This document shows positions 40,779 through 46,320 of a stretch of 64,000 nt of DNA, piece by piece. The stretch is taken from positions 124,001-188,000 of the forward strand of contig NZ_JAINWI010000011.1 of NCBI RefSeq assembly GCF_021021435.1. The letters are read 5' to 3'. Each line of letters starts with the position of its first letter. The first letter of the stretch is position 1. Under the pieces are notes generated by a model that worked only from the letters and a program-made list of their open reading frames with translations, searched no databases and was not told the origin of the DNA. This stretch comes from Seohaeicola saemankumensis. GTDB taxonomy: Bacteria > Pseudomonadota > Alphaproteobacteria > Rhodobacterales > Rhodobacteraceae. Made by a program: the position numbers and the translations under genes.

Positions 40779-41100
40779 GTGTCCCTTCCTTCTTGGGTTG
40801 CGAAGGAACCGGGGTGCCCGACATGTGCACGACGATCTTCCTTCGATGCCTTTGCGGCCTTGATACTCTTTTTAGCGTCCCTGTCACGTCAGCACAGCCC
40901 CGTAACACAGAAAAAACCGCGCGAATTGACGCAAGAATAGCTTTCGTGATCACAAGTCGATTATGTGTGATCACAAAAATTGCTGCGTGAGCGTGATTTC
41001 GGGAATCAACCTGCCGCAAAGACCGTTGATCCCGCCCCGACACAGCAAGAGTTCCGCAGTGTGACCGCAAGGCATTGAAAACGGGGCCGCCCGTTTGTGA
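40779..41100. other. 322-bp non-coding region: sdh upstream regulatory region
   Basis: No plausible gene. It contains two GTGATCAC palindromes (40946-40953 and 40967-40974) and reaches into a third that spans the mch stop codon. A leader of about 165 bases would separate the paired sites from sdhC. A clear -35/-10 pair was not identified. Confidence 0.7.
40943..40977. promoter_or_regulatory. Paired GTGATCAC palindromes upstream of sdhC
   Basis: TTCGTGATCACAAG and TGTGTGATCACAAA, with centres exactly 21 bp (two helical turns) apart. The same paired layout occurs upstream of sucC. Likely a dimeric regulator binding side by side on one DNA face. GntR-type regulators of TCA genes in Rhodobacter (AkgR) are candidates by function; the site match is not verified. 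Confidence 0.65.
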
Positions 41101-41107
41101 TCACAAA
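41094..41107. promoter_or_regulatory. Perfect TTTGTGATCACAAA palindrome at the mch stop codon
   Basis: A perfect 14-bp palindrome that includes the mch TGA stop. It lies 151 bp beyond the paired sites (centre to centre) on the side away from sdhC. Could be an auxiliary operator for sdh. Confidence 0.55.
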
Positions 41108-42162
41108 GGCATCAGCGCCCAGTAGTCCAGATCCAGCAGGACATGCGGCTGATACTTGCCGTCATCGCTTTTCAACCGGAACGCACCGGCGGCGTTATTG
41201 GCGACCAGACGCAATCGGATCGCACCGACACCGGGCACGTTCGTTTCGGCCTTGTCCAGCACCTCGGACCATGCGCGGATCGTGTCGCCGCTAAAGCAGG
41301 GGTTCGCATGCGCGCCCGCGTTCAGACCGACGATCATCTGGGCATTGGCCAAGCCGTTGAACGACAGCGCCCGCGCCATGCTGATCACATGCCCGCCATA
41401 GATCAACCGCCGCCCGTCCGCACGCTGTGTCGCGTCGAAATGCACCTTGGCGGTGTTCTGCCACAGACGAGTGGCGATCATATGCTCGGCTTCCTCGATC
41501 GTGACACCGTCGACATGGTCGATTGTCTCGCCGATCTCGTAGTCGCGCCAGCGATGCGGTTCGCCCGATTGGGTGAAATCGTAATTGGTGAAATCCAGAC
41601 TTTCGGGCACGACCAGTTGATCGGGGGTCAGCACGGGGGCCAGTTCGGGGATGACCGTCTCGGGCGTTGGCGCGTCGAAATCGTTTTTCCGCACCATGAC
41701 CCAACGCACATATTCCAGCACAACCTCGTCCCGCTGGTTCAGACCACGCGTGCGGACATAGACCACGCCGGACTGGCCATTGGAATTCTGCTTTAGCCCG
41801 ATCACTTCCGAGGTCGAGCGGATCGTATCGCCTGCATAGACGGGCTTCAGCCACCGCCCCTGCGCATAACCCAGATTGGCAATCGCATTCAGCGAGATAT
41901 CGGGCACCGTCTTGCCAAAGACGATATGGAAAGCCGCCATATCATCCAGCGGGCTTTGCGGCAGGCCGCAATTGCGCGCGAATTCATCCGAGGAATGCAG
42001 CGCATGCCGCGCGGGATAAAGCGCATGATACAGCGCGCGTTCTCCGCCAGACACAGTGCGCGGCACGGCATGTTCGATCACCTGACCGATAGTGTAATCC
42101 TCGAAGAAACGTCCGGCGCTTGTCTTGATCGGAACGACATGGAACTGCGAATGCTGCATCAT
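41101..42162 (-). CDS. mch: Mesaconyl-CoA hydratase (MaoC-like, beta-methylmalyl-CoA dehydratase)
   Basis: 353 aa with two MaoC-type hot-dog halves. The N-terminal half opens GRFFEDYTIGQVIEHAVPRTVS, the C-terminal half RWRDYEIGETIDHVDGVTIEEAEH, with HVISMARALSFNGLANAQ later. This duplicated form is the Mch enzyme that hydrates mesaconyl-C1-CoA to beta-methylmalyl-CoA in the ethylmalonyl-CoA pathway. It overlaps the DUF1737 gene (ATGA) and is the last gene of the mcl operon. Two adjacent ATGs at 42162/42159; GGGAGAG upstream. Confidence 0.93.
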   Translation of the reverse strand: MMQHSQFHVVPIKTSAGRFFEDYTIGQVIEHAVPRTVSGGERALYHALYPARHALHSSDEFARNCGLPQSPLDDMAAFHIVFGKTVPDISLNAIANLGYAQGRWLKPVYAGDTIRSTSEVIGLKQNSNGQSGVVYVRTRGLNQRDEVVLEYVRWVMVRKNDFDAPTPETVIPELAPVLTPDQLVVPESLDFTNYDFTQSGEPHRWRDYEIGETIDHVDGVTIEEAEHMIATRLWQNTAKVHFDATQRADGRRLIYGGHVISMARALSFNGLANAQMIVGLNAGAHANPCFSGDTIRAWSEVLDKAETNVPGVGAIRLRLVANNAAGAFRLKSDDGKYQPHVLLDLDYWALMPL

Positions 42163-42365
42163 TGCTCTCCCAGCTTCATGGCCGGATCATAAGTCTTGCC
42201 CGCAACCTCTTTGGTAACCGCCTGCCCGCAGCGCATCACGCCGTTGGCCGCGTCAAAAGCATAGGTCGGATCGCCATAAAGCACCCATCCCTTGTTCAGC
42301 GCATCCGTCACCTTGTGACAGAATGCAGATGTGTCATCGGCGGTTAGCAAACGAAATAGCATCAT
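42159..42365 (-). CDS. DUF1737 domain-containing protein
   Basis: 68 aa, whole protein is the DUF1737 domain: FRLLTADDTSAFCHKVTDAL followed by NKGWVLYGDPTYAFD and the MRCGQAV segment. Cytosolic, function unknown, common in Rhodobacteraceae next to this operon's genes. Starts 5 bp after the nnrU-like gene and overlaps mch by 4 bp, so it is tightly co-expressed with the pathway genes. Confidence 0.85.
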   Translation of the reverse strand: MMLFRLLTADDTSAFCHKVTDALNKGWVLYGDPTYAFDAANGVMRCGQAVTKEVAGKTYDPAMKLGEQ

Positions 42366-42370
42366 CGGTT

Positions 42371-42916
42371 TTATCCAGGGAAAGGCCAGACGCCCAACCA
42401 GGCGTGGACGGCGGTCATGACGGCAAACAGGACAAGGGTGATCACTACCAGAAGGATATCCTTCTTGGCATCACCGGGTTCCGGGCGCACCCATGGCCCC
42501 GCGCGGTTGATCAGGATCACCGACCCCACAGCCCATGCCAGCAAGCCACCGAACAGGATGATCGAGGCCAGATCGCCATTCACCAGCAAATGCGCCACCG
42601 CCCAGATCTTGACCGCTGTCAGTTGTGGATGCCGCATCTTGCCACGCAAACGGCCTGTCGTGGCACTCATTCCGTAGACGAAGACTGCGACCAGCATCAT
42701 CAGATTGTTCAGATGCACGGTCCAGCTTGGCGGTGCCCAGACATGGATGAACTCGGCCCCGCGATAGCCGAAAATCATCATCAACAGGCTCGCCACGATG
42801 GCGACAGCCACAAGACCCTTGCCTTTGTCACCCATCGCCGCGCGTTGTTCGGGCGCGAAGCGTTTGAAATAATGGGCGGCGGCCCAAAGGATAACACCGA
42901 GGCTCAGAAGGATCAT
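42371..42916 (-). CDS. NnrU family membrane protein
   Basis: 181 aa with about five membrane helices. Landmarks are GYRGAEFIHVWAPPSW, the HLNNLMMLVAVFVYGM helix and RHPQLTAVKIWAVAHLLVNGDLAS with the conserved His residues of the NnrU group (related to isoprenoid-acting membrane enzymes). First described beside nitrite-reductase genes, but no denitrification genes are here. In this window it sits between mcl and DUF1737, in the ethylmalonyl-CoA operon. Confidence 0.88.
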   Translation of the reverse strand: MILLSLGVILWAAAHYFKRFAPEQRAAMGDKGKGLVAVAIVASLLMMIFGYRGAEFIHVWAPPSWTVHLNNLMMLVAVFVYGMSATTGRLRGKMRHPQLTAVKIWAVAHLLVNGDLASIILFGGLLAWAVGSVILINRAGPWVRPEPGDAKKDILLVVITLVLFAVMTAVHAWLGVWPFPG

Positions 42917-42930
42917 TTGCGACGCTCCAC

Positions 42931-45212: not shown

Positions 45213-46175
45213 ATGGCCAGACCCAAGATTGCCCTTATCGGCGCAGGACAGATCGGGGGCACGCTTGCCCACCTCGCCGCGCTGAAGGAACTGGGCGATA
45301 TCGTCCTGTTCGACATTGCCGAAGGCACGCCCGAAGGAAAATCGCTTGATATCGCGGAATCCGGCCCCTCGGAAGGGTTCGACGCGGCGCTGCGTGGCAC
45401 CCAGTCCTACGAGGATATCGCAGGCGCTGATGTCTGCATCGTCACTGCCGGCGTCCCCCGCAAGCCGGGCATGAGCCGTGATGACCTGCTGGGTATCAAC
45501 CTCAAGGTCATGAAATCCGTGGGTGAAGGCATTGCGAAATATGCCCCCGATGCTTTCGTGATCTGCATCACCAACCCGCTAGACGCGATGGTCTGGGCAC
45601 TGCGCGAATTCTCGGGCCTGCCGCATCACAAGGTCTGCGGTATGGCCGGCGTTCTTGACTCCGCCCGCTTCCGCCACTTCCTGAGCCTCGAATTCGGTGT
45701 GTCGATGCGCGATGTCACCGCCTTTGTTCTGGGCGGTCATGGCGACACGATGGTGCCGCTGGTGCGCTATTCCACCGTGGCCGGTATCCCGCTGCCCGAT
45801 CTGGTCAAGATGGGCTGGACCACGCAGGACAAGCTGGATGCGATCGTACAGCGCACCCGTGACGGTGGTGCGGAAATCGTTGGCCTGCTGAAAACCGGCT
45901 CGGCCTTCTATGCACCTGCTACATCCGCCATCGAAATGGCCGAAGCCTATCTGAAAGACCAAAAGCGCGTCCTGCCCTGCGCGGCATATGTTGACGGCGC
46001 TTATGGCCTCAAGGGTTTCTATGTCGGCGTGCCCACCGTGATCGGTGCTGGCGGCATCGAAAAAGTCGTGGATATCACCATGAACAAGGACGAACAGGCG
46101 ATGTTCGACAAGTCCGTGGACGCAGTCAAAGGTCTGGTTGCCGCTTGCAAGGAAATCGACTCCTCGCTGGCATGA
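45213..46175 (+). CDS. mdh: Malate dehydrogenase
   Basis: 320 aa, LDH-like MDH. NAD motif [12 protein letters not shown], substrate Arg in [13 protein letters not shown], and catalytic His in [16 protein letters not shown] 45213 has GGAG nine bases upstream and gives the usual [10 protein letters not shown] start. Followed by a terminator and then sucC with its own regulatory region, so mdh is transcribed at least partly on its own. Confidence 0.98.
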
Positions 46176-46188
46176 TCCGCACCCGAAA

Positions 46189-46210
46189 CAGGTTTCGCTG
46201 GCGAAACCTG
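46189..46210 (+). other. Hairpin after mdh
   Basis: CAGGTTTCG and CGAAACCTG around a CTGG loop, 14 bp past the mdh stop, without a T run. May protect the mdh 3' end. Confidence 0.4.
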
Positions 46211-46225
46211 TGATACATCCTGTCG

Positions 46226-46255
46226 GGGCTGGCCAAGTGCCAGCCCTGATTCTTT
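46226..46255 (+). terminator. Probable terminator of mdh
   Basis: GGGCTGGC and GCCAGCCC around a CAAGT loop, followed by TGATTCTTT. The T run is interrupted, so termination may be partial. Confidence 0.6.
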
Positions 46256-46285
46256 ACCAGACAGGCCAATCCTCGTGAATCCAGC

Positions 46286-46320
46286 TTTGTGATCACAGAT
46301 TTTAAGCGTGTGATCACAAA
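46286..46320. promoter_or_regulatory. Paired GTGATCAC palindromes upstream of sucC
   Basis: TTTGTGATCACAGA and CGTGTGATCACAAA with centres 21 bp apart, 100-140 bp before the sucC start. Same core, flanks and spacing as the sdhC pair, indicating a shared regulator of the two TCA operons. Confidence 0.65.

Follow-up and report, generated by a model that had tools for sequence, protein, structure and literature searches.

Paired palindromes upstream of sdhC and sucC as candidate operators for an AkgR ortholog in Rhodobacteraceae

Which regulator reads two pairs of palindromes lying at the same spacing upstream of two operons of the tricarboxylic acid (TCA) cycle, and how might it act on their promoters? 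The question is raised by a stretch of 64,000 nucleotides from Seohaeicola saemankumensis (assembly GCF_021021435.1, contig NZ_JAINWI010000011.1, positions 124,001 to 188,000), hereafter the window. There, sdhC and sucC are each preceded by two copies of the palindromic core GTGATCAC. In our reading, these pairs would be operators for an ortholog of AkgR, which belongs to the GntR family and has an FCD ligand domain; two dimers of this ortholog would sit on one face of the DNA and activate transcription from upstream. On the sequence evidence presented below, we give this reading a probability of about 0.8.

In both pairs, the palindrome centres are exactly 21 bp apart (40949.5 and 40970.5 for sdhC, 46292.5 and 46313.5 for sucC; Table 1). 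The positions and spacing of these four cores, as reported in an earlier note on this DNA, were reproduced exactly. The note had further stated that the palindrome appears four times, always at TCA-cycle genes. The longer palindrome TGTGATCACA does occur exactly four times, starting at 40966, 41096, 46288 and 46309. Hence, three pair members have this sequence, one sdhC pair member, at 40945, is CGTGATCACA, and the copy at 41096-41105 is the perfect part of a fifth, overlooked site, TTTGTGATCACAAA, which overlaps the stop codon of the hydratase-like gene preceding sdhC. Overall, the window holds eight copies of the core, of which three (13809, 21389 and 42438) are away from the sdhC and sucC promoters. 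With at most one mismatch to TGTGATCACA, the window has 7 matches for 1.52 expected, and none of 100 shuffles reaches 7.

At the scale of the whole genome (4,086,917 bases), the pattern GTGATCAC-N13-GTGATCAC occurs twice, as the sdhC and sucC pairs, and no rival exact 21-bp pair exists elsewhere. The next-best 21-bp pair (L013) has a single mismatch and falls within an open reading frame, as does L016, the other relaxed pair inspected. When up to three mismatches are tolerated, 77 pairs are matched vs. 3 for a control made of the pattern written backward. CTAG is a rare tetranucleotide in many genomes. The backward pattern contains it and may flatter the signal, and a palindrome of the same composition, CTGATCAG, was added as a fairer control. 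In the family Rhodobacteraceae, sampled as one genome per genus, pairs are present in 179 of 199 genomes vs. 11 of 199 for CTGATCAG. A chance origin of the pairs was rejected on the basis of the shuffles, the genome-wide pair count and the CTGATCAG control. In a sample of the whole class, the pair was found in 29 of 387 genomes, six of which are all the family members sampled. The other 23 (of 381) have 25 listed pairs, whose spacings are scattered and equal 21 bp in two cases. Two loci of one other family of the class (L204 in genome G210 and L205 in G324) carry GTGATCAC pairs with A/T flanks, spaced by 22 and 21 bp.

Are the pairs kept at the same genes in relatives? Gene-anchored regions show that they are. 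For sucC, regions were taken from 116 of 194 genomes (six fetched by the pattern; G092 and G025 picked out of order for lacking the regulator gene; several others passed over because their pair was already in hand), and 111 of them carry an exact pair, at 21 bp in 100 cases, 20 bp in 10 and 22 bp in one. The five others come from G025, G043, G092 and G147, which have no ortholog of the regulator described below, and from G157 (L123), in which sucC has been relocated and the pair remains before sucA, next to mdh. Additional cores are sometimes seen upstream of sucC: three stand in a row at 21 bp in L147 and L153, and L153 and L162 have an extra core at 26 bp. For sdhC, 138 of 192 genomes gave a region, mainly by similarity (8 came from pattern-fetched loci and L118 was dropped). 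An exact pair was found in 110 of these regions and a relaxed one in 11; the exact-pair spacings listed for the 138 regions are 21 bp (96), 20 bp (14), 13 bp (1) and 34 bp (1). An earlier set of 37 and 29 conservation regions was partly ascertained by the pair pattern. In 10 of 30 sdhC loci (L241-L270), a third exact GTGATCAC is found 56-162 bp farther upstream of the pair, with no obvious helical phase in these distances on inspection of the 30 loci.

The identity of the regulator is suggested by published work on the AkgR regulon of Rhodobacter (Cereibacter) sphaeroides. GTGATCAC is named among the binding sites of AkgR, termed an activator (PMC6365646). The predicted targets of RSP_0981 include RSP_0967-6, 0974-6 and 0965-62, which correspond to sucCD, sdh and sucAB (PMC4344238). 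In S. saemankumensis, one of the ten TGTGATCACA sites of the genome is located directly upstream of a gene for a GntR/FCD protein of 216 residues, on contig C45, outside the window. Both domains score above cut-off (PF00392, 45.9 bits; PF07729, 58.2 bits), and the genome has 18 GntR-domain matches in all, this gene included. Among the 30 best matches to it in 100 genomes, its own included, 29 have a GTGATCAC core near the start of the gene. One locus (L113, genome G166) has two cores 13 bp apart before the GntR gene. The Cereibacter-like locus L104 shows the order sucB-A-D-C-mdh-...-sdhC-D-A-B-GntR, with both pairs present, an order matching the RSP tags of R. sphaeroides (PMC4344238). Its GntR protein shares 76% identity with that of the window genome over residues 13-214 and 94% with the Cereibacter ovatus protein. 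The gene in L104 lies beside sdhB and has no self-site, whereas in S. saemankumensis it is on a different contig from sdh and has one. Another of the ten TGTGATCACA sites is intergenic (L008:1501-1510). It precedes, by about 190 bp, a gene whose small product resembles a CoA-binding protein, so described without a family scan; this gene is possibly a further member of the regulon.

The distribution of the pair follows that of the regulator gene. With the ortholog called at a best E value of 1e-78 or lower, a pair with any gap from 3 to 33 is found in 159 of 161 genomes having the ortholog and in 2 of 19 lacking it (Fisher p 1e-19, a statistic that ignores shared ancestry). This table, compiled by reading listings, covers 180 genomes: 100 from a first sample, 79 consecutive ones and G185, added by hand for lacking the pair and without which the counts are 159, 2, 2 and 16. 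Nineteen further family genomes stand outside the table; of these, G198 has no pair. Genome G100, devoid of pairs, has only a fragment of the ortholog (C56:33045-33317; residues 9-99, 71% identity), a possible sign of recent loss. Thus, the suggestion of the earlier note that a TCA-cycle regulon is involved, with AkgR as candidate, is supported by the printed motif, the predicted targets of RSP_0981, the self-site, the co-occurrence and the gene order of L104. The two refuting outcomes named in the earlier note, numerous equally good pairs at unrelated genes or pairs not conserved in relatives, failed to appear. It is highly likely, from sequence comparison, that the window sites belong to the known AkgR regulon.

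For the regulator protein, AlphaFold2, run with a 40-ortholog alignment, gave a best model with a mean predicted local distance difference test (pLDDT) score of 85.1, the other four reaching 57-63. The nearest solved structure is E. coli McbR/YncC (Foldseek E 2.7e-12, template modelling (TM) score 0.85, 26% identity), also ranked first by profile search (E 5.8e-25); the Foldseek matches include Atu1419 structures. Residues N137, H141, H184 and D206 are invariant in the ortholog alignment; by comparison with FCD proteins, they may form a metal site in which the last histidine is replaced. Within the GT-GATC-AC core, the GT and AC boxes are 4 nt apart, the distance given for HutC-type operators and not the 3 or 2 nt of FadR-type operators (PMC4494728). 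Despite this box distance, the predicted FCD domain still places the AkgR-like protein with the FadR types.

How are the pairs positioned with respect to the promoters? The promoter elements considered here rest on family alignments because a mechanical sigma-70 scan recovered no sdhC promoter and, near sucC, nothing but a match on the minus strand. After the sdhC pair, the alignments display a strong common element, CGTGAC(A/T)-N16-TA; after the sucC pair, an unsupervised search gave a weaker TTTA...TATAC element. Promoter models trained on the modal distance only were then applied with a threshold set at the 99% level of shuffled sequence, and 111 of 120 sdhC and 79 of 111 sucC regions scored above it. 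Pair-promoter distances fall into discrete classes with none between: 52-53 (4 regions), 61-65 (98), 72-75 (6) and 82-85 (3) for sdhC; 37-39 (10), 47-49 (68) and 71 (1) for sucC. Non-modal offsets are -10.6 to -9.6, +9.4 to +12.4 and +19.4 to +22.4 for sdhC (13 of 111), -11.3 to -9.3 and +22.7 for sucC (11 of 79). At a period of 10.5 bp, the mean cosine is 0.83 for sdhC and 0.92 for sucC, and for either promoter none of 100,000 uniform draws was as well phased. A conservative test with one event per class (five events) gives P 0.0007. Without a threshold, the unsupervised sucC scan places 110 of 111 regions at 37-39, 47-50, 59 or 71. Such changes by whole turns would be expected if activator and polymerase had to share a face of the helix.

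The DNA between pair and promoter is also periodic. In family profiles, A/T peaks occur about 18, 29, 39 and 49 bases from the start of the proximal core at both promoters. The amplitude of this periodicity is 0.143 for sdhC (best period 10.5) and 0.155 for sucC (9.6), vs. maxima of 0.0185 and 0.0216 in 500 shuffles. The first tract beyond the pair keeps its place relative to the pair in those promoters that are displaced by whole turns.

From these data, we propose the following mechanism. Each GTGATCAC core with its A/T flanks would bind one dimer of the AkgR ortholog. The two dimers would then lie two helical turns apart on the same DNA face; the cooperative dimer-of-dimers binding put forward in the earlier note is consistent with the fixed spacing. 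With start sites set 7 nt after the -10-like hexamer, the dimers would activate sigma-70-type promoters from about -88/-109 (sucC) and -97/-118 (sdhC). The ladder of A/T tracts, with its repeat of about 10 bp, may bend the DNA or offer landing places to the C-terminal domain of the RNA polymerase alpha subunit (alpha-CTD), and the distance between pair and promoter would evolve by whole turns. Negative autoregulation is the probable role of the single site found where the akgR gene starts. A more speculative extension, which we advance only tentatively, is that the two GntR dimers, the A/T ladder and the core promoter make up a phase-locked module, that is one curved, single-faced structure wrapped by the polymerase, whose register would be kept by family-wide selection, with insertions and deletions surviving in units of about 10.5 bp.

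Several observations weigh against operators for an AkgR ortholog acting in phase with the promoter. Two genomes, G035 and G139, have the ortholog and no exact pair, neither sdhC nor sucC being found in G139. Conversely, G018 and G105 have pairs with no ortholog found, their assemblies being split into 210 and 320 contigs. In G106 and G152, which are among the 17 genomes devoid of both gene and pair, sdhC and sucC gave no match either, which makes these two weakly informative. The self-site is present in just 27 of 80 named loci and absent in 53. Fifteen of the 138 sdhC regions have no pair even under relaxed rules, and two have a single site. Among these 15 pairless genomes, the ortholog is missing or fragmentary in six (G004, G025, G043, G093, G100 and G147), a seventh, G196, is outside the ortholog test, and eight possess it (G061, G080, G109, G135, G140, G145, G163 and G178). 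Degenerate 21-bp pairs are visible by eye in G061 and in the single-site genome G101. As for the promoters, the -10 part of the sucC motif is poor in the window genome. The phase test omits the 9 of 120 sdhC and 32 of 111 sucC regions below threshold; without threshold, five low-scoring sdhC regions fall at other positions and one sucC region, at offset 45, is off the classes. Relatedness also matters, since the phase statistics ignore phylogeny: the shifted promoters represent 12 (sdhC) and 4 (sucC) sequence clusters, and 8 of the 11 shifted sucC promoters belong to one cluster. Finally, a weaker 10-bp A/T signal (0.038 and 0.033), still above its shuffles, extends beyond the distal site.

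Alternative readings must be compared with that of two AkgR dimers activating from upstream. One preformed AkgR tetramer might read the pair as a bipartite operator, like a molecular ruler. The nearly invariant spacing would fit, and there are precedents in the BusR tetramer, with sites 22 bp apart (PMC8517857), and in Atu1419/VanR, also a tetramer (PMC7797058) and recovered among the structural matches of the AkgR model. Nevertheless, we consider a tetramer rather unlikely: 24 exact pairs are spaced by 20 bp, three consecutive cores at 21 bp are seen in two loci, the RCK_C domain of BusR is absent from AkgR according to Pfam, and the single sites at akgR genes, together with the non-phased third sites, suggest that one site can suffice. 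The pair could also repress, with AkgR or another factor in the role of distal silencer or loop anchor. Repressors are indeed common among FadR-type GntR proteins, NanR (PMC8012715) and Atu1419 (PMC7797058) being examples, and a third upstream site is present in 10 of the 30 loci inspected. Repression is nonetheless improbable, as the sites lie well upstream of the inferred -35 elements without overlapping them, third-site distances show no helical phasing by inspection, and AkgR is termed an activator (PMC6365646).

The A/T ladder, for its part, could be a general trait of family promoters unconnected to the pair. UP-element-like A/T tracts around -42, -52 and -62 are known from other promoters, and the ladder profile covers the sdhC and sucC promoters alone. 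A general trait seems somewhat unlikely, given that the first tract keeps to the pair when promoters are shifted and that the amplitude falls to about a quarter on the far side of the pair. A last possibility, very improbable in our view, is that the palindromes are bound by another regulator, such as the LacI-type CceR (which we take to be RSP_1663), a CRP/FNR-type protein or another GntR protein. The 18 GntR-domain matches leave room for one. Predicted targets of RSP_1663 do include sdh and mdh, but its motif, GTT-N6-8-AAC, differs from GTGATCAC (PMC4344238). PS417_07240 of Pseudomonas, 32% identical to AkgR, has been proposed to use the AkgR motif (PMC6365646). On the other side, presence of the pair follows the AkgR-like ortholog, the one GntR gene compared. 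CceR and CRP sites were rejected as candidates; by inspection, the palindromes, being GTGATCAC, do not have the GTT-N6-8-AAC inverted repeat of RSP_1663.

The features of the two loci are collected in Table 1. On the minus strand, the sdhC pair precedes sdhC, the first gene of sdhC-D-A-B; on the plus strand, the sucC pair lies between mdh and sucC, the first gene of sucC-D-A-B. The genes sdhA, sdhB, sdhD, sucA and sucB were named from their sequences and from their order, which is conserved in relatives, rather than by family scan. The true start of mdh is probably later than that of the listed open reading frame.

Table 1. Coordinates, in the window, of the palindromes, A/T tracts, putative promoter elements and genes.
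Feature	Position	Strand	Remarks
sdhC-proximal AkgR-type palindrome, CGTGATCACA	40945..40954		core GTGATCAC at 40946-40953
sdhC-distal palindrome, TGTGATCACA	40966..40975		core GTGATCAC at 40967-40974; 21 bp from partner
third, single palindrome, TTTGTGATCACAAA	41094..41107		130 bp upstream of sdhC pair; overlaps hydratase stop codon
sucC-distal palindrome, TGTGATCACA	46288..46297		core GTGATCAC at 46289-46296
sucC-proximal palindrome, TGTGATCACA	46309..46318		core GTGATCAC at 46310-46317; 21 bp from partner
sdhC phased A/T tracts	40903..40939	-	about 40933-40939, 40924-40927, 40911-40916, 40903-40907; between pair and -35
sucC A/T tracts	46326..46360	+	AATTT 46326-46330, AAAA 46338-46341, AAAA 46347-46350, AAAAAA 46355-46360
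sdhC -35-like hexamer GTGACA	40882..40887	-	centre 65 bp from proximal palindrome centre
sdhC -10-like hexamer TATCAA	40860..40865	-	16-nt spacer
sucC core-promoter motif of family	46358..46393	+	score 17.7, unsupervised scan
sdhC, first gene of sdhCDAB operon	40395..40778	-	TIGR02970, 118 bits (cut-off 52.3); PF01127
sdhD, sdhA, sdhB	37056..40382	-	40011-40382, 38187-39992, 37056-37871; open reading frames, names from sequence and conserved order
unnamed open reading frame between sdhA and sdhB	within 37056..40382	-	
mesaconyl-CoA hydratase-like gene, upstream of sdhC	41101..42162	-	PF19315
mdh, malate dehydrogenase, upstream of sucC pair	45123..46175	+	as listed open reading frame; NF004863, TIGR01763
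sucC, succinyl-CoA synthetase beta	46426..47619	+	NF001913, 586 bits
sucD, succinyl-CoA synthetase alpha	47624..48505	+	NF004230, 463 bits
sucA and sucB, 2-oxoglutarate dehydrogenase E1 and E2	49321..53880	+	open reading frames, names from sequence and conserved order

How does this arrangement compare with known systems? The layout fits that of class I promoters, with the sites upstream of the -35 element predicted from sequence and distances varying by whole turns. In E. coli, CRP at class I promoters likewise binds beyond about -60, its helical face being fixed relative to the promoter. Unlike CRP, the candidate regulator is a GntR/FCD protein with a double operator, and the phasing is seen in natural variation rather than with engineered spacers. 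The AkgR model has E. coli McbR/YncC as its best match in both structure and sequence. BusR resembles the AkgR pair in that two sites at a fixed 22 bp are read by one assembly (PMC8517857), but it is a tetrameric repressor with an RCK_C domain and a coiled coil, whereas AkgR has an FCD domain. Membership of AkgR in the BusR type of ruler was rejected, Pfam finding GntR and FCD domains only and no RCK_C. NanR (PMC8012715) and Atu1419/VanR (PMC7797058) share the fold class of AkgR and occupy their operators as multiple dimers or tetramers; they differ in being repressors, with direct repeats for NanR and palindromes 109-190 bp apart for Atu1419. The AkgR regulon of R. sphaeroides shares with the present system the target operons sucCD-sucAB and sdh as well as the GTGATCAC core. 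The regulon itself is already known. What may be new is the constant spacing within the pair, its distance to the promoter in whole turns and the A/T ladder, none of which appears in the excerpts on that regulon. Neither the pair nor its phasing is described in the excerpts of the papers searched (PMC4344238, PMC6365646, PMC11323563, PMC4419725, PMC7471390, PMC5507952, PMC4494728, PMC7797058 and PMC8517857), a set that excludes the primary AkgR study (Imam 2015).

The citric-acid cycle of a large and ecologically important family thus appears to be governed by one rigid promoter design. Constraints on the face of the helix are usually known from engineered spacers. Here, natural variation across well over 100 genera gives evidence for such a constraint between an activator and its promoter. 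Finally, the pair together with its phased promoter is a usable signature for annotating AkgR control in the genomes of the family.

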